This document shows, one piece after another, positions 6,398 to 26,375 of a stretch of 64,000 nt of DNA (position 1 is its first letter; every line of letters starts with the position of its first letter). The stretch is taken from NCBI GenBank assembly GCA_019694975.1, contig JAIBAY010000002.1, forward strand, positions 1 to 64,000, in the 5' to 3' direction. Origin of the DNA: Chitinophagales bacterium (GTDB lineage Bacteria; Bacteroidota; Bacteroidia; Chitinophagales; UBA10324). Below the pieces are notes generated by a model. That model searched no databases and was not told the origin of the DNA. It saw only the letters and a program-made list of their open reading frames with translations. A program made the position numbers and the translations under genes.

Positions 6398-9300
6398 ATG
6401 GCATTTTTTTTACCTGAACTTCGCGGTTCGATTGTCACCTTTCTGCTTGTTATTACCTTCTCTTTTACCGCCACAGCTTATACCGTTACTGAATTGCAGG
6501 CCGTTAAATACAATGGTCAGGTTTTCCTTACCTGGAAAAATGCAACCGCCACCAATCTGCAGTATAACGTTTACCGCTCCGCTTCCCCAATCACTTCTGT
6601 ATCCAACCTGAACGGCAGTACCTATCTCGGCTTTGTGAGGGACAACTCAGCAAAAAATATCCGTAAGTCAACTTTATATGGGGGAAATTACTACTATAAG
6701 ATTACTTCCACCGCAGCACCACTCGCCAGTGACCGCGGGTTATACGTAGCTACCTGTACAAGCAATGGCAACTTCTATTACGCAGTAACCGTAACCAATC
6801 TCACCACAGGCCAGGAAGATAAATCGGTACTGAATTCCGCTAATTCACTCGTGAGTCCGGTCGCAGAATCAATTGCCAATCCGCAACCCGTTCTGCAATA
6901 CCAGGGTGTGGAAAATGACGGCACCTTAAGATATGAATATGCGCAATGGGGAAACAATCAGTCTACGGCACAGTATCCGGCATTCACCAATGCCGGTTCT
7001 TATGCCTGGAATTTCACGGTTTTTAAATCAGGCAACAGCACCGGAAAATCTATTTATATGCTGTTTAAAGATGAAGATCCGTTTTCCGTTTCCGGAATTA
7101 ACCTCTGTACTGATTGCAACGTGATAAAGATAGACGACCGGTTGCCAAACGGTGTGGATACTTACTGGAGCGGTTGGAACGACAGCTATAACATGTATTC
7201 CACCACCAATACAATCCCTTCATCAGGCACAATCAAAATGTATACGCAGGCCAGGCTTAAGGAAACATTGGAATGGGTCAGGAAAAATATCGGAGCCGAC
7301 AGTAATAAGGTTTATCTGACAGGTATTTCACACAATGCTTTCGGCGCGTTGCTAACCTCTGAAATGTGGCCGCAGATGGTAACAGCTGTATTTGCCAAGA
7401 ATGCACCTATCCTGATCAAAGCGCTCGGCAATACAGACAGGCAAGAGCAATGGTGCAACAGTTCAGACAACTTCGATTCCGATTATCCTGATCCGGTTAC
7501 GGGTGTAGCTATTCCCATCTGGGACCTTTTTGATATGCGACATATGTACCTTGTAAATGAGAATCGTGATATTCCTTATACATGTGGTATCAATGGCAAA
7601 CAGGATGTGACCGTTGGATGGGTGCAAAAATACTGGTGGTACGATACTGTTAACTTAGCAAGGCATGGAGGTGCCTGGTATTGGGATCAGCGAAATCATA
7701 CGAATGCAGGGGCCACATTTACCGATGATGAGGTGACACCAAACTATGAGCGGTTTTCTATTGCCAAGTCTTATCCTGCCTTTTCCTACTGTTCCATTAA
7801 CCAAGATCCTGGTACCGGATCACCATCATCCGGCGATGCAATTGGTGCGCTCAATGGCTACCTTGACTGGAACGATGCTTCCATTACAGATAACCAGAAT
7901 GATTATAGTGTTACCTGCTTCGTGAAGTCAATGATTGCTAACGGGGTGCCTGTGCCACAGCAGTACGATTCATGCACCTCAGATGTGACGTTTCGAAGGG
8001 TACAGAAATTTAAGCCCAATGTCGGCCAATCCATATATTGGAAAGTTAAAAAGAACAACAATGTAATCGTTCAGCAGGGTTCATTCGCCTATGCGGGTGG
8101 ACCGATCACCTTATATGGTGTAAAAATTTACAAGACCAACAGTCTTATTTCGCTGTCGACAACGCCTTCCTGTACTACGCTTTATTATGCCGATGCAGAC
8201 GGAGACGGATATGGCGCTGCTGCTGATCCCGGAACGGTTTATTGTACTCCTCCTTCCGGATACGTAATCAATAACACTGATTGCAATGATGCCAACGCCG
8301 GTATTAAGCCGGGTGCACAGGAAGTCTGCGATGCAGGTGATATTGATGAAGATTGCGATGGTCTGAATGATGATGCTGATCCATCTGTTACCGGTAAAAT
8401 AATGTACTATGTGGATGCCGACCATGATTCCTACGGATCAGCTGCAGCGGCCGGTACCGGTTACTGCAATCCGCCTGCATGGTACACCACCAATCACACG
8501 GATTGCAACGATGCCAATGCAGCCATAAAACCGGGTGCGCAGGAGATCTGCGATGCCAATGATGTGGATGAAGACTGCGACGGCCTGGCCGACGATGCAG
8601 ATGCTTCGGTGACCGGTAAATTGAAGTACTATATTGATGCGGATCATGATGCTTTTGGAACAACTGCCGGTTCAGGAACATATTATTGCAATCCGCCAGC
8701 ATGGTATACCACCAATCACTCTGATTGCAATGATGCCAATGCCAACATAAGGCCGAATGCACAGGAAACTTGTGATGTCAATGATGTGGATGAAGACTGT
8801 GACGGCCTGTCTGATGATGCGGATCCTTCCGTAACCGGCAAACTAACCTATTATCCTGATGCCGACCATGATAATTTTGGATCATCATCTGCTGCAGGCA
8901 TCGCGTATTGTAATCCGCCTGCGTGGAATCTGACGAATAATAGCGATTGCAATGATCTTAGCGCAAGCATTTTTCCGGGAGCAGCAGAAATGTGTAACGG
9001 AGTGGATGACGACTGCGATGTTTTGATTGATGACAATGCCGGTATTCCCTATTATGCCGATGCCGACAATGACAGCTATGGCAATGCTGCCATGTTTATA
9101 ATTTCCTGTTCCGCTCCCAATGGCTATGTAGCGAACAGCGCTGATTGCAATGATCAAAATGTTTCGGTTAATCCAGGAGCTGTTGATATCTGTGACGGCA
9201 TTGATAATAACTGCAATGGCATCGTGGATGAAAATGCCATTTCGGTCTCCGTAACAGCATCAGGCCCATTAACAGGATGTAAGAGCGATATGATCACACT

Positions 9301-10684
9301 TACCGCTTCCGGCACCAACATCAGCACCTTCAAGTGGTATAAGGGAAATTCCGGAAATCCGGTGAGTGGGCAGACAAATGCCACCTATGCACTGAATTAT
9401 GATAATACAACCGTCACCGCCATTGTGTCAAATGCTTTTGGCTGTTCAGCTACTTCCAACATCATCACGCTGTCAAGCATAGCAAATCCTTCCGCTTCCA
9501 TCACGGTACTGAATAATGGCAACCTCAACCTCTGCCAGCCGGTTGAACTTGCTTCATCCGGAACCGCCAACTACACCCGTCAATGGCTCAGGAATGATAT
9601 TTTTATTACCGGTGCAACTGGCATTAACTATTCACCGCAAACCGGCGGTAGTTACAGCGTGATTATCACCAATGCATCCGGCTGCAGCAAACTTTCCTCC
9701 TCCATCACCGTGATCGATCCAGTTTATTACTATTCGGATGCAGACTCAGATGGCTTTGGATCTTCCGCTGATGCCGGAACGGTTTACTGCGATCCACCTG
9801 CAGGAAAAGTTATCAATAACAGCGATTGCAATGACTTAAACAATAAGATCTATCCCGGCGCTCCGGATATGTGTGATGGCATTGATAATAATTGCAATGG
9901 AATAGCCGATGATAATGCGATCACTGTTTCATTGAACCCTCCCGGACCAATCAATGGTTGTAAAAATGATTTTGTCACCATAACCGCCACCGGAACCAAT
10001 ATTGAAAGTTATAAATGGTATAAAGGAAATAATCAGAATGCTGTAGCAGGGCAGACGAATTCAAGCTATACTTTAACTTATGATAATACCAGCGTAAAGG
10101 CCGTGATATCCAACAGTTTTGGCTGTACTGCCACATCGGCGAGCACGGTTATTACCAGTACGCTGAATCCGACTTCTAACATTACTGCAGTTAACCTGAA
10201 TCTGTGCGCTGGCCCGGTTATTTTAACCGCTTCGGGTGGTGCAATCTTGAGCTGGCAGTGGTATAAAAACGGAATATTGATTCCGGGAGCCGTGACCTAC
10301 ACCTATATCGCCACCGAGCCGGCCTACTATGAAGTGAATGTGACTAACACCAATACAGGATGCGCGAAGCTATCTCCACCGGTTACCGTGATAAATTCCT
10401 GTAAAGAAACCGGTTATTCAGAAAGGGAATTCACCGCTTCCTTAAGCATCTTTCCTAACCCTTCCAGGGGTCAGTTTCATGTGACAATCGATAACCTCCA
10501 CAGCACATCTGTTACGCTCCGATTGTCTGATCTGACAGGACGGCGGATATCCAGTTCTAATGAAGGAATCGTCCAGGACCATTACGAGACCGATATTGAC
10601 TTACGGCCGTATGCTCCGGGAGTCTATAGCCTTGAAGTAATTATGGGAGAACAGGTTATACGGCAACAATTGATCAATCAGTAA
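6398..10684 (+). CDS. T9SS-secreted protein: alpha/beta-hydrolase-like N-terminal half, six MopE repeats, Ig-like domains
   Basis: 1428 residues with a signal peptide (cleavage near TATAYTV, residue 26 or so). Residues 30-110 look FN3-like (VFLTWKNATATNLQYNVYR). Residues 200-560 resemble a secreted alpha/beta hydrolase: an arginine-containing helix (ARLKETLEWVRKNIGADSNK) leads to YLTGISHNAFGAL near residue 310, the usual place of the nucleophile elbow, though the motif is GxSxxA rather than GxSxG. Five tandem MopE-type repeats follow at about 595-945, then Ig-like repeats, a sixth MopE unit at about 1108-1174, more Ig-like sequence, and a T9SS type A sorting domain from about 1350 (SIFPNPSRGQFHV, ending APGVYSLEVIMG). 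Probably a surface-attached esterase-like enzyme or an inactive homologue; the substrate is unknown. It is a paralogue of the preceding gene only in the MopE and Ig parts. Confidence 0.8.
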   Translation: MAFFLPELRGSIVTFLLVITFSFTATAYTVTELQAVKYNGQVFLTWKNATATNLQYNVYRSASPITSVSNLNGSTYLGFVRDNSAKNIRKSTLYGGNYYYKITSTAAPLASDRGLYVATCTSNGNFYYAVTVTNLTTGQEDKSVLNSANSLVSPVAESIANPQPVLQYQGVENDGTLRYEYAQWGNNQSTAQYPAFTNAGSYAWNFTVFKSGNSTGKSIYMLFKDEDPFSVSGINLCTDCNVIKIDDRLPNGVDTYWSGWNDSYNMYSTTNTIPSSGTIKMYTQARLKETLEWVRKNIGADSNKVYLTGISHNAFGALLTSEMWPQMVTAVFAKNAPILIKALGNTDRQEQWCNSSDNFDSDYPDPVTGVAIPIWDLFDMRHMYLVNENRDIPYTCGINGKQDVTVGWVQKYWWYDTVNLARHGGAWYWDQRNHTNAGATFTDDEVTPNYERFSIAKSYPAFSYCSINQDPGTGSPSSGDAIGALNGYLDWNDASITDNQNDYSVTCFVKSMIANGVPVPQQYDSCTSDVTFRRVQKFKPNVGQSIYWKVKKNNNVIVQQGSFAYAGGPITLYGVKIYKTNSLISLSTTPSCTTLYYADADGDGYGAAADPGTVYCTPPSGYVINNTDCNDANAGIKPGAQEVCDAGDIDEDCDGLNDDADPSVTGKIMYYVDADHDSYGSAAAAGTGYCNPPAWYTTNHTDCNDANAAIKPGAQEICDANDVDEDCDGLADDADASVTGKLKYYIDADHDAFGTTAGSGTYYCNPPAWYTTNHSDCNDANANIRPNAQETCDVNDVDEDCDGLSDDADPSVTGKLTYYPDADHDNFGSSSAAGIAYCNPPAWNLTNNSDCNDLSASIFPGAAEMCNGVDDDCDVLIDDNAGIPYYADADNDSYGNAAMFIISCSAPNGYVANSADCNDQNVSVNPGAVDICDGIDNNCNGIVDENAISVSVTASGPLTGCKSDMITLTASGTNISTFKWYKGNSGNPVSGQTNATYALNYDNTTVTAIVSNAFGCSATSNIITLSSIANPSASITVLNNGNLNLCQPVELASSGTANYTRQWLRNDIFITGATGINYSPQTGGSYSVIITNASGCSKLSSSITVIDPVYYYSDADSDGFGSSADAGTVYCDPPAGKVINNSDCNDLNNKIYPGAPDMCDGIDNNCNGIADDNAITVSLNPPGPINGCKNDFVTITATGTNIESYKWYKGNNQNAVAGQTNSSYTLTYDNTSVKAVISNSFGCTATSASTVITSTLNPTSNITAVNLNLCAGPVILTASGGAILSWQWYKNGILIPGAVTYTYIATEPAYYEVNVTNTNTGCAKLSPPVTVINSCKETGYSEREFTASLSIFPNPSRGQFHVTIDNLHSTSVTLRLSDLTGRRISSSNEGIVQDHYETDIDLRPYAPGVYSLEVIMGEQVIRQQLINQ

Positions 10685-16548: not shown

Positions 16549-17370
16549 ATGGCCCATAACCTATTGAAAGGAAAGAAAGGACTCATCTTCGGTGCACTGG
16601 ACGAAAGTTCCATTGCCTGGAAAGTTGCCATGCGCTGTCATGATGAAGGCGCAACACTTACGCTATCCAATGCACCGATTGCGATGCGAATGGGGAAAAT
16701 AGCAGAACTGGCCGCTGCGGTGAAAGCGGAAATTATCCCGGCTGATGCTACCAGTGAGGAAGATCTCAATAAACTGGTGCAACGCATGATGGAGATTCAT
16801 GGCGGGCCTGTTGATTTTGTGCTGCACTCCATTGGCATGTCACCCAATGTGAGGAAAAACAAACATTATACGGAGCTTAACCATGAATTCATGCTGAAGA
16901 CAATGGATATCTCCGCATTGTCGCTGCATAAGATTATGCAGAGCTTTTATCAGATGGATGCACTGAATGAAAACGCCTCCGTGCTGGCATTAAGTTATAT
17001 CGCAGCACAGCGTGTCTTTCCTAATTATAATGATATGGCTGATGCGAAAGCATTGCTGGAATCAGTGGCAAGAAGCTGGGGCTACCACTATGGCATGAAG
17101 AAAAAGGTGCGCGTGAATACCATCTCACAGTCTCCTACATATACTACTGCTGGTTCAGGTGTTGCTGGTTTTGATATCTTTTTCAACTATGCCGAAGCTA
17201 TGTCACCATTGGGTAATGCCACTGCCGATGAATGTGCCGACTACTGCGTTACCATGTTTTCTGATCTTACGAAAAAAGTCACGATGCAGAATCTCTTTCA
17301 CGATGGTGGTTATTCCTATACCGGCGTAAGTGAAAAGATGATGGAGCTGTTTAGGAATAAGGAAGGATAG
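16549..17370 (+). CDS. fabI: Enoyl-[acyl-carrier-protein] reductase (NADH)
   Basis: 273 residues; reduces the trans-2-enoyl-ACP double bond in the last step of each fatty-acid elongation cycle. It is an SDR of the FabI branch: cofactor-binding N-terminus LLKGKKGLIFGALDESSIAWKVA, the VLHSIGMSP strand, and the catalytic Tyr-x6-Lys in YNDMADAK. The longer frame from TTG 16531 is rejected because the -7 box overlaps it and homologues begin MAxNLLKGK. It is the last gene of the housekeeping run and is followed by a strong terminator hairpin at 17444. Confidence 0.95.
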   Translation: MAHNLLKGKKGLIFGALDESSIAWKVAMRCHDEGATLTLSNAPIAMRMGKIAELAAAVKAEIIPADATSEEDLNKLVQRMMEIHGGPVDFVLHSIGMSPNVRKNKHYTELNHEFMLKTMDISALSLHKIMQSFYQMDALNENASVLALSYIAAQRVFPNYNDMADAKALLESVARSWGYHYGMKKKVRVNTISQSPTYTTAGSGVAGFDIFFNYAEAMSPLGNATADECADYCVTMFSDLTKKVTMQNLFHDGGYSYTGVSEKMMELFRNKEG

Positions 17371-17394: not shown

Positions 17395-17440
17395 CTCACT
17401 CACTATTCACTATTCACTTTTCACTATTCACTACTCACTA
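17395..17440. repeat. Short tandem TCACTATTCAC-type low-complexity repeat
   Basis: Several imperfect copies of CTATTCACTATTCA/CTTTTCA/CTACTCA follow one another between fabI and its terminator. No coding potential or pairing partner was seen. Confidence 0.7.
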
Positions 17441-17584: not shown

Positions 17585-20500
17585 TTATTTCACAATTTCA
17601 ATTTTCTGTACCTCCGTTTCTTCACCGCGTTTTACCTTTACAAAGTACATTCCGGGTAACAGCGTTCCACCATCCACCTCAAATTCAACATGACCGGTTT
17701 GTGCCACGCGACCAGACTTCCATACCTCGCGGCCGGTTATGTCAAAGACGCTGATTTCATAATTATCATCACAGTAGAATGAAACAGTAAAGTTGCTTTG
17801 CGACGGGTTCGGATAAACGCGCATGCCTTGATCGGCGAACAAATCAACACCATCCTTGCAGGTGATATTCACGATGCACTCCTTCGAAATCTTATTGCAA
17901 CCGCCGGGATTGGTTGTTTTAACGGTATAACTTCCTGCTGCAGAAGCAGTATACGTGCTGTTGGTAGCCCCGCCGATATTGCTTCCATTGAGCTGCCATT
18001 TATAAGTATAACCATCTCCCGTTTTCGCAGTGAGCACCACTGTTTGCCCCTGGCAAATATTTACAGGGGAATTATTGGTGATTTTAGAAATTGGTGAAGG
18101 ATTTACAGTAACCACCACAGGAGCGGAAAGAGTAGAGCAACCGTTCGCTGTAACAACGAGTGTATAGCTGCCTCCTGTTTTTGCAGTATAGTTTTTCTTG
18201 GTCGCACCTGCAATATCCACCGTATTCAGTTCCCATTGATAGGTCAAGCCATCTCCGGTATTGGCATTCAGCTTCACCTTGGATCCGTCACAGAATGTGG
18301 TTGCGCCGGCCGGAGTTATTACGGAAACAGGGCCGGCTCCGGCTGTGGTCGAAATGGGCGATGAAGTACCACTGCATGCATTGACATCTGTAACAGTCAC
18401 GGAAAAGCTACCGCTGCTGCTGACAAAAATACTTTGCGTGGTGGCACCATTGCTCCACAAATAAGAAGCAAATCCCGCAGGCGCCGAAAGCGTCACACCG
18501 CCATTGCAAAAAGTGGTGGGGCCGTCAGGCGTGATTACTGGAGTAATTACATTGCAGGGTGCAGCCTGGCTGCCGGTTAATGCCGGTATCAGATATGCAG
18601 TGTAGTCGGATGTTCCATTGTATTCCAGCACTGCGAAATAATAAGCGTGATTGGGAAGCAGGTCGGTTACTGTTACGCTGCTGCCTGTTCCATCATAAAC
18701 TGCATAGCATGCATTCCCGAGATTAGAACCGGTTTTAAACGCAGCACTGGCATTATACGATTGTCCGTTCATGGGCAGATTGTTTACGCCACTCCCTTCT
18801 TTAACAACCACTATTCTTCTTTCACCTGTTCCGGCTGTGAAGTTTGCCTGAATAGATGTTGGTGTGATATTCGAAAACTGCAAGGCAGCGCTTTGCGTAA
18901 GCGGAGCTAATGTAGAAGCAGCAAAGTAAGGGCTTGTACTTGCACTATTGTAGGTAAGATCCCAGGTTCCTCCGGCAAGCAACCGGTTATTGCCGGTTTG
19001 AATACACCACGCACTACCGTTTTTGGGTTGAGGATCATAATCCAAAAGGTTTGAAGAAGTAATGTCAATAGATGCAATATTCCCACGATCCGAACCATTA
19101 ATATTCATTGTTGAAGTATTAGCACTGAAAAAAAGTGTATTGCCCCAAAGTGCTATGTCATATACACCCTGGTAAGCAGGGAGAATTACAGGATGCAGGG
19201 AAGTAAGAGTTCCGCTTGCCAGATCGAAAGCCGCAATGGAACTTCTCGCCTGGCTGGAAATATTTTCGAAATTACCACTCACGAATAATGTAGACGCATT
19301 TGCCGCAAGTGACCAGCAATAAGAATCAGGACTTGGGTTCCAGTTGTTCAGGTTGCCGTTTGTATTATTCACCTTTGCCAGATAATTTCTTGAACTGCCT
19401 TTCACGGTAGTGAAATATCCGGCCAGGTAAACATCACTCCCAATAGTAAGAATATCTTCCACAGTACTATTTGGATTGGGTTGCCAGTTAGTGACTGAGC
19501 CGTTACCAATAGTGGAAACTGCAGCCGCATAATTCCTGCTTTGTGACTTGATCGAAGTGAAGTATCCGCCCACATAAAGGGTAGTGCCACTCATTGCGGC
19601 AGCCCAGACATAGCTGTTGCAGTCAGCATTCCAGGATGTTGCCGTTCCATCTGATGCATTTAATGCAGCAAGATAGAGCCTGCTTTGCCCGCCGATATTA
19701 CTGAATTCACCGCCTGCATACACTGTGCTGCCGGACGATGCCAATACATTGACATTTCCATTTGCATTCGGATCAAATGCTGTGACTATTCCAGATGTGG
19801 CGTCTATTGCTGCAATTCTGTTTCTTGTCACAGATCCCATTAATGTAAAGTCACCGGCAAAAATCAGGTCGTTGTCATCACCCAGCATGTCATACACGAA
19901 GCCATTGGGAGCATAATCCATATCGGAGAGCTGAAAATTGCTCAGGTCATACGCAGCCAGATTTTTCCTGGGAATGTAAGAGCTTGTATTCCAGTCATAA
20001 AAATTGTTGAAGTAACCGCCGACTACCAGTTTTCCATCGGCTACTGCCAAAGCTGTTACCGGTTGATCAGGATACTGATGGAGTGAATGCGACAGCTCGC
20101 CTGTCTGATCATCTAAGGAAATCAGGTAATAATCATAATAAAGACTATCATAGTAATAGAAATATCCGCCTGCAAAAACATCGGTGCCATGATGCAGGAT
20201 TTTACCGATGTAACTCACACTGTAAAATGATGGAACCGGATTCCAGGCTGTGAGTTGATTGTTGCTGAGATCAAAGCATGCCAGGTGATTTTTGCTGATC
20301 AGATGATCATAAGCGAATATGCCACCGGCAACAACAGTGCTGCCATTGACCGAAATGGCACTTACCGCATCACTCAGGTTTCCCTTCCAGGTAGTATCAA
20401 TAAGGCCGGTGGAAAGATTGATGCGTGAAAGGTAATTGGTACTCACTCCCTGCAGTTCTGTAAAATAACCACCGACATACAGGTTATTTCCGGCTAAGCT

Positions 20501-22108
20501 GAAAATATTAATGGCATTATTGGCATCCACCTGCAGTGATGTGGGTTGTGTTGCACCTTCGGTTATAGCGGCAAAATATAGTCTCGAGGAACTTCCTACC
20601 TGCGAAAAAATTCCACCCATATACAACGTAGTGCCATTGAGCAAGAGTGTCCAGACTTCATTATTAACGGTTGGGTTCCAGGAATTCACATTGCCATTGG
20701 TGCTGTTCACCTTGGCAATATAATTATGCGTTGCACCCTTTACCGTGGTAAAACTTCCACCAAGATACACGTTGCTGCCTGTTCCATCCATAATAAGCGT
20801 ATAAACATAATTATTTGTACTTGGTGACCAGCTTTGCAGGTTACCGGTACCGCTGCTACTGACTGCGGCTGCGTAGTTGCGGGCTGTGCCTTTCATCGAA
20901 GTGAATCCTCCTCCCATATATACATTAGTTCCGGACAATGCCATGGCCCATACACTACTATTTGCATTAGGATCCCAATTGGTCAGTGTGCCATTGCTGC
21001 AGAGTACGGCACCGGCCTTGTTCCTCGTCACTCCGTTTATTGCGGTAAAATCGCCCCCTATGAATAAGTTAGTGCCATCAGTTGCCATGCACCAGACAGT
21101 AGAATTGGTGCTTGCGGTAAAATTCGGATCCACGGTACCGTCAGCAAGGATATGCGCCAGGTATTGATGTTGTTCACCACCGACATGGGTGAAATAGCCA
21201 CCAATAAAATTACCTCCACTGCCATCCTGTACCATGGTATAAACGGATCCATCCGTCTGCGGGAAATTGGCAACGGGATTTGTACTGCTGGTAGACATCT
21301 TAGCCAGTCCTCTTACAGGAGTTCCTATACTGTTAAATGTTCCTCCCACATAAAGTTGATTCCCGTCCGATTCTATAGTGTTGATAGCGCCGTCGCCAAC
21401 GGGAAAGGATGTATTCACCTTTCCGGTAACAGCATCCAATGCAGCAAAATTTCCCGGCAAGTAATGATTTCCTACATAAGAGAAAGATCCCTGAATAAAC
21501 ACAGTTGTGGGTGTTGCGCGCACAAGATTTAAATATTGGTCTGGGGCATCAGGTATCCATGGCAGCGTAGCTCCGGTTGCTGCATCAATGGCGGCAAGGT
21601 TCGTGCGCGGATCGCCGTTCACAGCGGAAAAAGAGCCGGCGATATACAATTTATCATCCAGCTTTGAAATGCCATACACTTCGCCGGTGACCGATACATG
21701 AAAAGCAGTATCAAGCGAGTTATCGTTCAGCATGTGAAGGATGTTGGATGTTACGGTATTGCCGTTAAAGTAACCGGTACCTCCGGATGTGTAATAACCG
21801 CCGTTTCCATCCGGTTCAATGTCATAAACCGGCCCGCCACCAAGTTGCGGAAAGCTGTTGTCCGGTCTGGTTTCCCCGGGTTTGAAACGGGCAATACGGT
21901 CGGCAGGCCAGCCGACGTGGCTAAACTCTCCGCCCAGGTAGATGGTATTGCCATCCTGAATGGTGGTGCGCACCGTTCCGTCGGTGGTCATCATATTCCT
22001 GTTGATGGTTTGTGCAAAGCCGCTGAAGCACCAGAGGAGCAGTAACAGCGTGTGCAGCATGTTGCCTTCGACATGGCGAAGACAGGTGAGGGATTGTAGT
22101 GGTTTCAT
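17585..22108 (-). CDS. Giant T9SS-secreted delta-60/beta-propeller protein with Ig-like domains
   Basis: 1507 residues. The N-terminus is signal-like; an internal Met at residue 17 (22060) gives the more compact signal MLHTLLLLLWCFSGFAQ and may be the real start. Residues 35-1090 carry more than a dozen delta-60/propeller-type repeats of about 45 residues with the pattern LYxGGxFTxxxGxxRNYLAAxxxxxGxxxxWxPxxN. Residues 1100-1185 resemble an FN3 module, and 1186-1420 are Ig-like (TTFCNGGVTLSAPAGFASY; YxWQLNGxNIGGATN). The last 80 residues are a type A sorting domain (RVYPNPSQSNFTVSF, LLPGMYFVKVKRG). Probably a surface adhesin or scaffold; no catalytic motif was seen. It lies directly downstream (in its own sense) of the 279-bp array, separated by about 170 bases. 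Confidence 0.85.
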   Translation of the reverse strand: MKPLQSLTCLRHVEGNMLHTLLLLLWCFSGFAQTINRNMMTTDGTVRTTIQDGNTIYLGGEFSHVGWPADRIARFKPGETRPDNSFPQLGGGPVYDIEPDGNGGYYTSGGTGYFNGNTVTSNILHMLNDNSLDTAFHVSVTGEVYGISKLDDKLYIAGSFSAVNGDPRTNLAAIDAATGATLPWIPDAPDQYLNLVRATPTTVFIQGSFSYVGNHYLPGNFAALDAVTGKVNTSFPVGDGAINTIESDGNQLYVGGTFNSIGTPVRGLAKMSTSSTNPVANFPQTDGSVYTMVQDGSGGNFIGGYFTHVGGEQHQYLAHILADGTVDPNFTASTNSTVWCMATDGTNLFIGGDFTAINGVTRNKAGAVLCSNGTLTNWDPNANSSVWAMALSGTNVYMGGGFTSMKGTARNYAAAVSSSGTGNLQSWSPSTNNYVYTLIMDGTGSNVYLGGSFTTVKGATHNYIAKVNSTNGNVNSWNPTVNNEVWTLLLNGTTLYMGGIFSQVGSSSRLYFAAITEGATQPTSLQVDANNAINIFSLAGNNLYVGGYFTELQGVSTNYLSRINLSTGLIDTTWKGNLSDAVSAISVNGSTVVAGGIFAYDHLISKNHLACFDLSNNQLTAWNPVPSFYSVSYIGKILHHGTDVFAGGYFYYYDSLYYDYYLISLDDQTGELSHSLHQYPDQPVTALAVADGKLVVGGYFNNFYDWNTSSYIPRKNLAAYDLSNFQLSDMDYAPNGFVYDMLGDDNDLIFAGDFTLMGSVTRNRIAAIDATSGIVTAFDPNANGNVNVLASSGSTVYAGGEFSNIGGQSRLYLAALNASDGTATSWNADCNSYVWAAAMSGTTLYVGGYFTSIKSQSRNYAAAVSTIGNGSVTNWQPNPNSTVEDILTIGSDVYLAGYFTTVKGSSRNYLAKVNNTNGNLNNWNPSPDSYCWSLAANASTLFVSGNFENISSQARSSIAAFDLASGTLTSLHPVILPAYQGVYDIALWGNTLFFSANTSTMNINGSDRGNIASIDITSSNLLDYDPQPKNGSAWCIQTGNNRLLAGGTWDLTYNSASTSPYFAASTLAPLTQSAALQFSNITPTSIQANFTAGTGERRIVVVKEGSGVNNLPMNGQSYNASAAFKTGSNLGNACYAVYDGTGSSVTVTDLLPNHAYYFAVLEYNGTSDYTAYLIPALTGSQAAPCNVITPVITPDGPTTFCNGGVTLSAPAGFASYLWSNGATTQSIFVSSSGSFSVTVTDVNACSGTSSPISTTAGAGPVSVITPAGATTFCDGSKVKLNANTGDGLTYQWELNTVDIAGATKKNYTAKTGGSYTLVVTANGCSTLSAPVVVTVNPSPISKITNNSPVNICQGQTVVLTAKTGDGYTYKWQLNGSNIGGATNSTYTASAAGSYTVKTTNPGGCNKISKECIVNITCKDGVDLFADQGMRVYPNPSQSNFTVSFYCDDNYEISVFDITGREVWKSGRVAQTGHVEFEVDGGTLLPGMYFVKVKRGEETEVQKIEIVK

Positions 22109-22280
22109 TGGTATCAGGTTTTAGTGAAATGAATACCACAAATCTTCACGAATGCAAGGTGGCAGAGAACACCGGAAATGGTGTTTTCCAAATATCACGG
22201 AAAAGGGTTAGATGATTTATAGATGAAATGCCAATAGCGGTAGATTAAATGAAGAAATTCTGTTGAATTATTGAATCAAA

Positions 22281-23707
22281 GATCCCGAAATAAATTCGGG
22301 ATGACGTGTGGGTAAATTTTATCTCCGTATCAGCCGGCAAGTAATGTTAGCTTTGAATGAGAGAGCTCATATTAAACTTAACTACAAGTGATCATGCTGA
22401 ATTCAGCAGCGAAATGTCATCAGGAATTGTGCAGCGAGAGGTCATGCTGAATTTATTTCAGCATCTTATTGCGAATCCTTTGGAATTATTCATGCCCTGC
22501 TCCGGTGCCGTACTCTTTTGAAAGAATTATCCATGCCGAAGTTAAATCGGTATATGAAAGATCCCGAAATAAATTCGGGATGACGTGTGGGTAAATTTTA
22601 TCTCCGTATCAGCCGGCAAGTAATGTTAGCTTTGAATGAGAGAGCTCATATTAAACTTAACTACAAGTGATCATGCTGAATTCAGCAGCGAAATGTCATC
22701 AGGAATTGTGCAGCGAGGTGTCATGCTGAATTTATTTCAGCATCTTGTTGCGAATCCTTCGGAATTGTTCATGCTCTGCTCCGGTGCCGTACTCTTTTGA
22801 AAGAATTATCCATGCCGAAGTTAAATCGGTATATGAAAGATCCCGAAATAAATTCGGGATGACGTGTGGGTAAATTTTATCTCCGCATCAGCCGGCATGT
22901 AATGTTAGCTTTGAATGAGAGAGCTCATATTGAGCTTAACTACAAGTGATCATGCTGAATTCAGCAGCGAAATGTCATCAGGAATCGTGCAGCGAGAGGT
23001 CATGCTGAATTTATTTCAGCATCTTATTGCGAATACTTTGGAATTATTCATGCTCTGCTCCGGTGCCGTACTCTTTTGAAAGAATTATCCATGCCGAAGT
23101 TAATTCCGTATATGAAAGATCCCGTAATAAATTCGGGATGATGTGTGGGTAAATTTTATCTCCGCATCAGCCGGCAAGTAATGTTAGATTTGAATGAGAG
23201 AGCTCATATTGAGCTTAACAACAAGTGATCATGCTAAATTCAGCAGCGAAATGTCATCAGGAATTGTGCAGCGAGAGGTCATGCTGAATTTATTTCAGCA
23301 TCTTATTGCGAATACTTTGGAATTATTCATGCTCTGCTCCGGTGCCGTACTCTTTTGAAAGAATTATCCATGCCGAAGTTAATTCCGTATATGAAAGATC
23401 CCGAAATAAATTCGGGATGACGTGTGGGTAAATTTTATCTCCGTATCAGCCGGCATGTAATGTTAGCTTTGAATGAGAGGGCTCATATTGAGCTTAACTA
23501 CAAGTGATCATGCTGAATTCAGCAGCGAAATGTCATCAGGAATTGTGCAGCGAGAGGTCATGCTGAATTTATTTCAGCATCTTATTGCGAATACTTTGGA
23601 ATTATTCATGCTCTGTTCCGGTGCCGTACTCTTTTGAAAGAATTATCCATGCCGAAGTTAAATCGGTAAATGAAAGATCCCGAAATAAATTCGGGACGAC
23701 GTGTAGG
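22281..23707. repeat. Non-coding tandem array: five exact 279-bp units plus a partial sixth
   Basis: Units begin at 22281, 22560, 22839, 23118 and 23397, each opening with GATCCCG(A/T)AATAAATTCGGG; a sixth begins at 23676 and fades after about 30 bases. The period is exactly 279 bp every time, with substitutions only. No frame longer than 60 codons crosses it. Each unit contains three palindromes: ATCCCGAA/TTCGGGAT (loop ATAAA), the 12-bp GCTGAATTCAGC, and ATGCTGAA/TTCAGCAT (loop TTTAT). In unit 1 they lie at 22281-22305, 22396-22407 and 22441-22467. The array lies between the 3' end of the response regulator and the 5' end of the propeller gene. Function unknown; the palindromes resemble REP-like dispersed repeats, and no transposase or RAYT gene is nearby. 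Confidence 0.95.
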
Positions 23708-23747: not shown

Positions 23748-24395
23748 CTACTGCTCTGAATCCAGCAGTCCATTCTGTATCGCATATTTAACCAGGCCCG
23801 CCGTATTTTTAAGATTCAGTTTGCTCAGCAGATTCTTTCTGTGAGTCTCAATGGTATTGATACTCAGGAAAAGCCTATCAGCTATCTCCTGCGAAGTAAA
23901 CTCCTGCGCAATCATTTTCAGCACTTCCTTCTCACGCTCAGTCAGTTCCACCACGCCATCAAAAACCGTCGCTTTTCTGCCTTGCATACTTTCCATAATT
24001 CTCCGCGTAACCGCTTCGCTGAAATAGGTTTCTCCATTTTTCAGAGCATAGATTGCTGCCAGCAATTCTTCCTTGCCGGTATTTTTCAGAATATAACCGG
24101 AGGCACCAGCAGCCAGCAAACTGGCAACAAATTCGCGGGTGTTGTACATGGTTAAGGCCAGCACCTTCACATCAAGATGTTCTTTCCTTATCTGTCGCGT
24201 TGCCTCTACGCCATCCATGCCCGGCATATTAATATCCATCAGCACGATGTCGGTTTTCACCTTGTGTAGGATATCCATCAGTTCTTTCCCGTTCAAAGCC
24301 TCCCCGGCAATGATTATATCTTTGCGGCTTTGCAGGAGCGATTTGATGCCATCAATAAACATCTGGTGATCATCGGCAATGACGATGCTGATCAT
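23748..24395 (-). CDS. NarL/FixJ-type response regulator
   Basis: 215 residues. The receiver domain spans residues 1-120, with acidic pocket Asp8/Asp9, phospho-acceptor Asp54 (VLMDINMPGMDG), Thr82 and Lys104. The LuxR-type helix-turn-helix at about 149-205 (LTEREKEVLKMIAQEFTSQEIADRL, then SINTIETHRKNLLSKL) binds DNA. It starts 21 bases downstream of the histidine kinase on the same strand, so the two form a cognate pair. Targets are unknown. Its 3' end runs into the 279-bp array, whose first palindrome on this side may act as a terminator. Confidence 0.93.
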   Translation of the reverse strand: MISIVIADDHQMFIDGIKSLLQSRKDIIIAGEALNGKELMDILHKVKTDIVLMDINMPGMDGVEATRQIRKEHLDVKVLALTMYNTREFVASLLAAGASGYILKNTGKEELLAAIYALKNGETYFSEAVTRRIMESMQGRKATVFDGVVELTEREKEVLKMIAQEFTSQEIADRLFLSINTIETHRKNLLSKLNLKNTAGLVKYAIQNGLLDSEQ

Positions 24396-24416: not shown

Positions 24417-26375
24417 TCATTCATTTTCATCAGGCATTGGAATTTCTATGATGGCTGTAGTGCCCTTGCCCGGTGTGGAATCAATAGCAAAAGTACCATG
24501 GAGTTTCCGGGCACGCGCATCAATGTTCTTCAAGCCCATACCGGTTTTTGCCTTGCTGGCTTTCACATCGAAACCAATGCCGTCATCTTCGATAACGATG
24601 TTCAGCTGCCGCTCCAATTTATTCAGTTGCACGGTAATATTTTTCGCGGCCGCATGTTTGAGAATGTTGCTTATACATTCCTGTATGATCCTGTAGATGC
24701 CAATCTCCAAAGGCTGATGCAGCCGTTCCGGCAGGCCATAAAACAATAGTCTGGTTTTGATCTTCCCGCTTCCCTCAATGCTTTCCATCAATTCACGCAA
24801 GGCAGCCTGCAAGCCGAAATGCATAAGCATACCGGTATGCAGATTATGGGATATTTTGCGCACTTCATCGCATGCTTCGTCCAGCAGTTGATTTGCCCGT
24901 TCAAACTGAATCACGTTTTGAGACTGATAATTCTCCACCTTTTCTTCCAGAGCATTGAAATGCATTTTCACGGTAGAAAGCATGCTGCCAAGCCTGTCAT
25001 GCAGGTCTGATGCAATGCGCTTTCGTTCTTCTTCCTGTCCTTCCATCATGGCATTGTATGTTTTGAGCTCTGAATCTTTCAGCAGGTCATCCACTTTTTG
25101 CTGCTCAATCAATACATTTTTCTTGTGCAGCAGCGCGCGCTGACGATAATAGCTCAGGAGCAGGAATGCCATCAATACAATCAACAGCAAACCACCTGTG
25201 AGGACATTTCTTTCCCTTGTCTTTTTTAACAATTCAAGGGTCAGGATTTTATTCACCTGTTCCTTTTTTTCCGTTTCATATTTCTGTTGCACATCGGCAA
25301 TCTGCTTTGATTTTGCTTCATTAAACAGTGTGTCTTTGAGCCTGGAATAACGTTGATAATACGAAAGGGCACTTTTATAATCATTCATGTTCCAATAAAC
25401 ATTGGAAATATTATGGTAGAGCGATTTCTGTTTGTCTTTCCGGAGATTTACTTGGATGGAATCCAGGAGGTTCAGTGCACGGAAATACACTTCCAGCGAT
25501 TGCCCGTACATCTTGGATTTGTTATAGGCGGAGCCCAGGTTGGTCAGCGTCCTCACTTTTCCATCGAGGTCATGAACCTTTTCACGATAGGCAAGCACCT
25601 CATTGAAATATTGAATTGATTTGCTGTAATCGCCCAGGTCTTTGTATTTCAGCCCCAGGTTGTTTTTCACATCCATCACCCCTTCCGTATCTCTATTCTC
25701 CTCAAAGAGCCGCAGCGCATTGTTCCAGCAATGTAGTGCCGAATCAGACATATCCTGCAAATCGAAATCAATCCCGAGGTTGTTCAGCATCATGGCTTGC
25801 AGCACTTTGTTGCCGGTTTGAATAGCTGATTCAAGGTTTTTGCGGTGGAACTCTTCGGCCTTATTTCCATTCTCCATCTGCTGATACACGATACCAAGTT
25901 CAGAACTTACTTTGATGACCGGTGCTTCCATATCCTGACTTTCTGCAATTGTCAGGGCACGGAGAAGATGGATGACGGCGGAGTCGTATTCGCTTTCGTA
26001 TGCATAATACCTTCCTCTATCAAAAGCTATCCTGTACGAAAAACGCGGATCTGGAGGATTATTTAACGAGTCAAGTCTTGCAATGGCGTGATAGGCCTGC
26101 TGTGGCAATGACAAATTAAACAGGACATCAATCAACTGCACATATCCTTCTTTTACTCCTTGATCATATTGTAGTTTCGATGCAATATGCAGCGATCGCA
26201 ATATTTGGTTATGAGCATATTTCGGATTGGCTTCTATAGAATCCTTACTCTGCCGCAGCAGCCGATTAACGAGGGATGTATCCTCCATGTGCTGCGATTT
26301 GCCCGGAGAAGTAAATAAGATCAGCATTAGACTAACAACATATGCAAGGACAATGCTCCATGAATTTTTCATCAT
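24417..26375 (-). CDS. TPR-containing sensor histidine kinase (HisKA_3 type)
   Basis: 652 residues. A signal or membrane segment (residues 5-22) is followed by a periplasmic TPR region at about 35-350 (AEEFHRKNLESAIQTGNK; LGDYSKSIQYFNEVLAYREK; YGQSLEVYFRALNLL), a coiled stretch, one transmembrane helix at about 391-410, a short coiled coil and a HisKA_3 dimerisation domain with phospho-accepting His459 in ERKRIASDLHDRLG. The HATPase C-terminus has the N box ECISNILKHA, DDGIGFD, GMGLKNI and GKGT. This is a common Bacteroidota kinase architecture paired with a NarL-type regulator, which follows 21 bases downstream. The signal sensed is unknown; TPRs suggest a protein or peptide partner. Confidence 0.93.
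   Translation of the reverse strand: MMKNSWSIVLAYVVSLMLILFTSPGKSQHMEDTSLVNRLLRQSKDSIEANPKYAHNQILRSLHIASKLQYDQGVKEGYVQLIDVLFNLSLPQQAYHAIARLDSLNNPPDPRFSYRIAFDRGRYYAYESEYDSAVIHLLRALTIAESQDMEAPVIKVSSELGIVYQQMENGNKAEEFHRKNLESAIQTGNKVLQAMMLNNLGIDFDLQDMSDSALHCWNNALRLFEENRDTEGVMDVKNNLGLKYKDLGDYSKSIQYFNEVLAYREKVHDLDGKVRTLTNLGSAYNKSKMYGQSLEVYFRALNLLDSIQVNLRKDKQKSLYHNISNVYWNMNDYKSALSYYQRYSRLKDTLFNEAKSKQIADVQQKYETEKKEQVNKILTLELLKKTRERNVLTGGLLLIVLMAFLLLSYYRQRALLHKKNVLIEQQKVDDLLKDSELKTYNAMMEGQEEERKRIASDLHDRLGSMLSTVKMHFNALEEKVENYQSQNVIQFERANQLLDEACDEVRKISHNLHTGMLMHFGLQAALRELMESIEGSGKIKTRLLFYGLPERLHQPLEIGIYRIIQECISNILKHAAAKNITVQLNKLERQLNIVIEDDGIGFDVKASKAKTGMGLKNIDARARKLHGTFAIDSTPGKGTTAIIEIPMPDENE

Follow-up and report, generated by a model that had tools for sequence, protein, structure and literature searches.

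A 279-bp non-coding tandem array in a Chitinophagales genome, very probably a cluster of CGTC-type REP dimers

REP palindromes and their described clusters

Palindromes of the CGTC-tagged REP superfamily possess an 8–9-bp stem starting with AT, a 4–5-nt loop, a CGTC head for which TGTC or CCTC is allowed, and a tail that is mostly CCA (Di Nocera et al. 2013, PMC3733652). CGTC REPs are dispersed and mainly intergenic, and they flank no transposase gene. Head-to-head dimers predominate, and heterodimers occur in the CGTC-2 family. These REPs have been reported in five phyla, including Bacteroidetes, and clusters of them are called rare (PMC3733652).

In Pseudomonas fluorescens SBW25, tandem REPIN clusters include flanking DNA, and the largest cluster packs four REPINs into slightly more than 700 bp (Bertels and Rainey 2011, PMC3116915). 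In Neisseria, the dRS3 elements are CGTC-1 REPs. Intergenic arrays of 200–2700 bp and an association with genes for cell-surface proteins have been reported there; the elements called NIMEs combine several RS families in a mosaic, and a filamentous phage uses dRS3 as an integration site (PMC3898611, PMC9778887).

Here, we focus on a non-coding tandem array in the window, a 64,000-nucleotide stretch of DNA from a Chitinophagales bacterium. Very probably, it consists of tandemly clustered dimers of CGTC-type REPs, which are short palindromes of mobile type. Identification of so striking an array as a REP cluster makes a locus-specific mechanism unneeded. The array is an ordinary kind of bacterial repeat, and it offers one lead worth a census.

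The focal array and its palindromes

The existence of the focal array is confirmed. It spans 22278..23707, with no strand assigned, and consists of five units of 279 bp followed by a partial sixth of 35 bp (23673-23707), as delineated by Tandem Repeats Finder, BLAST on the own genome, and alignment. Specifically, Tandem Repeats Finder reports a period of 279, 5.1 copies, 96% matches, and 0% indels at 22278-23704. BLAST of unit 1 against the whole 4.3-Mb genome returns exactly five full-unit starts (22278, 22557, 22836, 23115, and 23394). In the alignment, 22 of the 279 columns vary among the five units, which differ pairwise at 6–16 positions and have no gaps. These three analyses bear out the original prediction of five units identical in length that differ by substitutions only. 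The accompanying claim that the array carries no coding frame also stands: the longest frame touching it is at most 59 aa, although 279 is divisible by 3, and a coding repeat is thereby ruled out. The absence of indels had, in addition, been read as a sign of recent origin. The absence is real, but it is not by itself proof of very recent origin because the units differ by 2–6%. The array has no Rfam matches at gathering thresholds.

Each unit holds two oppositely oriented copies of one palindrome with an 8-bp stem, a 5-nt loop, and a GTCAT head. The stem-loop forms are ATCCCGAA-TTTAT-TTCGGGAT and ATGCTGAA-TTTAT-TTCAGCAT. REP(-), with which the units start, reads CGTCATCCCGAATTTATTTCGGGATCTT on the minus strand in its first copy (22279..22305) and is present six times, opening each unit (22280, 22559, 22838, 23117, 23396, and 23675). 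The terminal REP(-) (23673..23707, minus strand) closes the array on the response-regulator side and is the first terminator-like hairpin after the regulator gene. REP(+) reads GTCATGCTGAATTTATTTCAGCATCTT on the plus strand in its first copy (22441..22467) and is present five times (22441, 22720, 22999, 23278, and 23557). In each unit, 25-bp sub-repeats found by Tandem Repeats Finder (2.5 copies; 22392..22453, plus strand) lead into REP(+). Together, the two orientations form a head-to-head REP heterodimer (22441..22584, no strand assigned; inverted-repeat pair I3), with tags outside and 90 nt between the arms, that recurs every 279 bp. The partners of the heterodimer differ in stem sequence.

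The nearest described family is CGTC-2. Shared with CGTC-tagged REPs are the 8-bp stem starting from AT, the 5-nt loop, and, in part, a CGTC-type head outside the stem. Also shared are the head-to-head heterodimers, the intergenic location, and the absence of a flanking transposase. Three features differ. First, the tail is CTT in the focal array and CTG in dispersed copies, not the usual CCA, which is no bar to membership because CCA is ascribed only to "most" CGTC REPs (PMC3733652). Second, one REP per unit has a GGTC or TGTC head: the head of REP(+) is GGTC in four of the five units and TGTC in the remaining one, while REP(-) carries CGTC in five of six copies and a TGTC-type or altered head in the other. 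Third, more than half of the copies are clustered. The palindrome agrees with the CGTC-REP superfamily in its stem and loop, the AT base, the type of dimer, and the absence of a transposase; its head fits only partly, and its tail does not.

Like the SBW25 REPIN clusters, the array consists of near-identical tandem units that combine a REP dimer with flanking DNA, and such arrays occur at many genomic places. The SBW25 elements are GTAG-type and linked to RAYT transposases, whereas here, five units occupy 1.43 kb and no RAYT is linked. Thus, the focal array works like a REPIN cluster, but it is not classed as one because no cognate RAYT is flanked by the same REP. Specifically, this REP does not occur within 1.5 kb of any of the genome's three REP-associated-type tyrosine transposase genes, and RAYT is ruled out as the cognate transposase. 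A perfect 10-bp-stem hairpin, AGTCCGGATT-TGC-AATCCGGACT, lies just 5' of a REP-associated tyrosine transposase gene (L019 1325-1347); it is unrelated to the CGTC-type REP.

Resemblance to the Neisseria dRS3 and NIME arrays lies in the CGTC REPs, the intergenic repeat arrays, and perhaps the surface-gene neighbors (here at three of seven loci, noticed post hoc). Unlike a NIME, the focal array repeats one unit exactly. A phage link was sought and not found, and a search for a plasmid or phage origin of the unit returned no matches. An array in a family-level relative, G008, mixes repeat families and looks more NIME-like than does the focal array.

Recurrence across the genome and origin of the array

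Following the suggestion in the original prediction that the unit be sought elsewhere, we find that its fate differs from that of its parts. No full-length unit exists elsewhere in the 4.3-Mb genome by BLAST of unit 1, so the 279-bp unit is private to the focal locus; the palindrome part is genome-wide. BLAST yields ~60 short genomic matches, all to unit stretches near 1-37 and 161-192, which are the two orientations of one palindrome. Allowing at most three mismatches, four versions of the palindrome give 70, 77, 112, and 54 sites, and the reversed-pattern control gives zero. Merged, the sites number at least 131, and 70 of those listed fall in clusters of five or more. Dispersed sites that were examined lie mostly outside called ORFs (44 outside, 3 inside).

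Most single REPs are embedded in an element of 122-130 bp that is bounded by 16-bp terminal inverted repeats, AGAAGCTATCTCAAAA; 42 elements were measured, and the terminal repeat was counted 82 times in the genome. The element, present in at least 42 copies, encloses a head-to-head REP dimer, shows no clear target duplication, and looks like a MITE with a nested REP dimer. Examples, all outside the window, lie near position 2000 in L057, L060, L064, L072, and L107. A 1.1-kb pair of the same termini (C6:57469-58594) flanks a degraded fragment with a weak match, below the curated cut-off, to an IS4-family transposase. The 122-130-bp element was considered and rejected as the source of the focal array: its termini occur neither in the window nor in the five other array loci fetched.

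Beyond this genome, the exact 28-mer has a single occurrence in each of five records (Prolixibacteraceae, Ignavibacteriales, Chitinophagaceae, and Treponema), and at least three of these records have an oppositely oriented partner nearby or a few hundred bases off. An exact 27-mer is present once each in four IMG/VR contigs. No clear orthologous locus was found in relatives, in which the best regulator matches are ~50% identical.

Seven further tandem arrays contain the same palindrome. With arrays defined as having five or more REPs, the total including the focal array is at least eight. The others lie at C7:8.3-9.6 kb (units of 143/164/185 bp), C7:108.4 kb (175 bp), C7:109.4 kb (192-211 bp), C7:118.0 kb (175/193 bp), C1:431.5 kb (288 bp), C12:73.3 kb (250-292 bp), and C12:87.8 kb (332-374 bp; running towards a contig end). 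Array coordinates in the fetched stretches are L009 4294-5660; L010 4343-6092 and 13926-14901; L011 3435-4129; L075 5200-6800; and L055 3700-5441. Units, 143-374 bp in length, are unrelated apart from the REP, and by BLAST the focal unit matches the other arrays at the REP only. In seven of the eight arrays, among them the focal one, tags are outside and orientations mostly alternate; tags are also outside in all seven dispersed pairs; the C7:8.3-9.6 kb array repeats a single REP orientation. Several arrays have 19-25-bp sub-repeats resembling iterated 5' halves of the REP, and unit lengths of the other arrays vary in steps of 18-21 bp. GTCAT-type heads number 6-20 per kb in arrays versus 0.7 per kb in a 15-kb control; heads without a full hairpin make up half or more in the C7:8.3, C1, and C12:73 arrays. 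Two REP arrays flank a GIY-YIG nuclease gene (L010 5027-5365; C7:109.0-109.4 kb). It was dismissed as a REP partner, as only one of five such genes lies between arrays and the other four are not at arrays; we found no literature joining GIY-YIG and REP.

How the focal array arose is suggested by its ends. It begins 2 bp before one REP(-) and ends just past another. Such REP-exact ends occur in two of the eight arrays (the focal array and that at C7:109.4 kb); in the remaining arrays, repeat homology extends past the REP. The REP-to-REP extent of the focal array makes it likely that recombination or slippage between REPs amplified it, and, for the same reason, the "recombination hotspot" of the original prediction is plausible. 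Probably, as far as one assembly allows it to be reconstructed, an ancestral REP-X-REP segment with both REPs in direct orientation was duplicated via homologous recombination or replication slippage between REP copies, which would yield REP-(X-REP)5. Later exchange among units could then have mixed their substitutions. In the four-gamete test among units, all four combinations occur at three pairs of variable sites (51/63, 63/269, and 63/272), which suggests exchange between units, with homoplasy possible given so few sites. Of the alternatives first proposed, amplification or homogenization, these incompatible pairs support amplification with some homogenization.

Several points speak against a cluster of CGTC-type REP dimers: the start-to-start spacing of the heterodimer is 117 in the focal array versus 35-58 elsewhere in the genome, the REP(+) head is GGTC/TGTC, the tail is CTT rather than CCA, and REP-exact ends are confined to two of the eight arrays. 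The points in its favor are the at least 131 sites, the eight arrays, the REP-to-REP ends, the four-gamete pairs, the hairpin geometry, the heterodimer orientation, the lack of a flanking transposase, the precedent of tandem REPIN clusters in P. fluorescens, and the terminator-like sites at REP(-) copies. We know of no mobilizer of CGTC REPs, and this genome, with its eight arrays and numerous dispersed copies, is therefore a useful test case for them.

Flanking genes and surface proteins

As originally described, the array lies ~40 bp from a response regulator and ~170 bp from the start of a propeller gene. The upstream neighbor is a NarL/LuxR-type regulator (23748-24395, minus strand; Pfam PF00072, PF00196) that, from spacing and strand, probably shares one operon with a TPR-HisKA_3 histidine kinase (24417..26375, minus strand; Pfam). 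The downstream neighbor is a DUF5122 beta-propeller protein with a type IX sorting tail (17585..22108, minus strand; Pfam PF17164, PF18962); first called giant, it measures 1507 aa. With both neighbors encoded on the minus strand, transcripts of the kinase-regulator operon would extend into the array. On that strand, five of the six REP(-) copies, whose hairpins have CTTT tails, are terminator-like, and the region has 10 terminator-like sites versus 1.3 in shuffles. U-runs at these hairpins are short. The unit folds only slightly better than its shuffled versions do (z -1.7 and -1.3), and a search for propeller-gene promoters gave none that was prominent; neither result lends direct support to the structured leader or regulator landing array first suggested. 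Most likely, the effects of the array are passive: it would place a series of weak terminator-like hairpins between the propeller gene and the kinase-regulator operon, and form a recombination-prone stretch in which copy number can vary.

Immediately past the regulator, the first 131 nt have a favorable predicted fold (z -3.35), largely because of a separate AT-rich hairpin that precedes the array. Together with the terminator-like REP(-) sites, this stretch makes a role as transcript end or insulator plausible. A stricter version, which we consider possible but less likely than not, confines function to the upstream operon: a REP-type 3' end terminates or stabilizes the kinase-regulator transcript, and the tandem copies are a by-product. 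The CTTT-tailed hairpins do start ~50 nt past the regulator stop codon and face transcription, but their short U-runs are unfavorable, and the well-folded 131 nt count for less with much of the fold lying outside the array. Likewise, REPs are reported mainly downstream of genes, yet the dispersed copies here show no such bias (20 unidirectional, 11 convergent, and 11 divergent).

Regulation of the propeller gene by the array is possible. Three of seven array loci lie within ~300 bp upstream of genes for type-IX-secreted proteins. Among dispersed REP sites, the count within 700 bp is 4 of 74 (Fisher p = 0.012; binomial values of 0.0006-0.026 if the background is set at 2.7-10%). The many type IX tails in the genome point to Bacteroidota. 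Random positions fall upstream of cargo genes in ~2.7% of cases, a lower bound because cargo genes are the 150 type IX tails, 150 of 314 candidates being scored. The seven loci are the eight arrays with the neighboring C7:108/109 kb arrays merged, and open-frame lengths served to estimate gene starts. A fourth array lies ~490 bp upstream of a ~6,470-aa ORF with Ig_7 (CHU_C-associated) domains (C7:88433-107848; L109, L092, L010), and the remaining three loci lie between convergent genes. In the relative G008, an ORF of at least 3,380 aa that encodes Ig_7 and GEVED domains is preceded, at a distance of ~500-900 bp, by a mosaic REP array. That intergenic array (L114 5466-7420) contains REP dimers and two other palindrome families, TTTCTTTTGGCTTGATCCAAAAGAAA and CCCTAAAGGGAG/CCCCTTTAGGGG.

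The location of about half of the REP clusters just 5' of genes for large secreted surface proteins is the sole unusual side of the arrays. Random scatter without a link to surface genes had been named as evidence against a special role; the palindrome and the array type do recur genome-wide, yet arrays precede type IX cargo genes more often than do dispersed REPs. We treat the link as a lead with modest support because it was tested after the pattern was seen and on few loci. Should placement 5' of type IX cargo genes hold in more genomes, the proximity of REP arrays to surface genes seen in Neisseria would gain a counterpart in another phylum, along with a testable source of surface variation.

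Alternatively, the array could be a selected cis-element (a tandem leader, attenuator ladder, or binding-site array) that sets or varies propeller expression with copy number as the dial. We consider such an element unlikely. The array does lie 170 bp 5' of the start codon with repeated terminator-like hairpins on the transcribed strand, and the cargo-gene enrichment, the Ig_7 ORF, and the similar arrangement in G008 are in keeping with it. However, a leader role is impossible for the arrays between convergent genes, units are unrelated between loci except for the REP, the unit folds no more strongly than expected, and the association was noticed post hoc on few loci with an incomplete list of cargo genes. 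Rather unlikely, too, is the broader notion that tandem amplification of CGTC-REP dimers in some Bacteroidota favors sites upstream of genes for large secreted surface proteins, the resulting arrays being a NIME counterpart in which copy number or REP recombination could diversify or tune those proteins. Finally, an assembly artefact concealing a true locus of one or two units is highly improbable: REP repeats do break assembly, with clusters of them found twice at the end of a contig (C12:87.8-89.4 kb and C7:28-187), but each unit has its own substitutions, similar arrays recur in the genome, and the focal array lies well within a 793-kb contig.

Other tandem repeats are present in the window. 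A 222-bp repeat (8269-8926; 3 copies, 75% matches) lies inside a coding frame (6398-10684), and a 7-bp repeat, TCACTAT (17400-17440; 5.9 copies), occupies the gap between convergent genes ending at 17370 and 17585.
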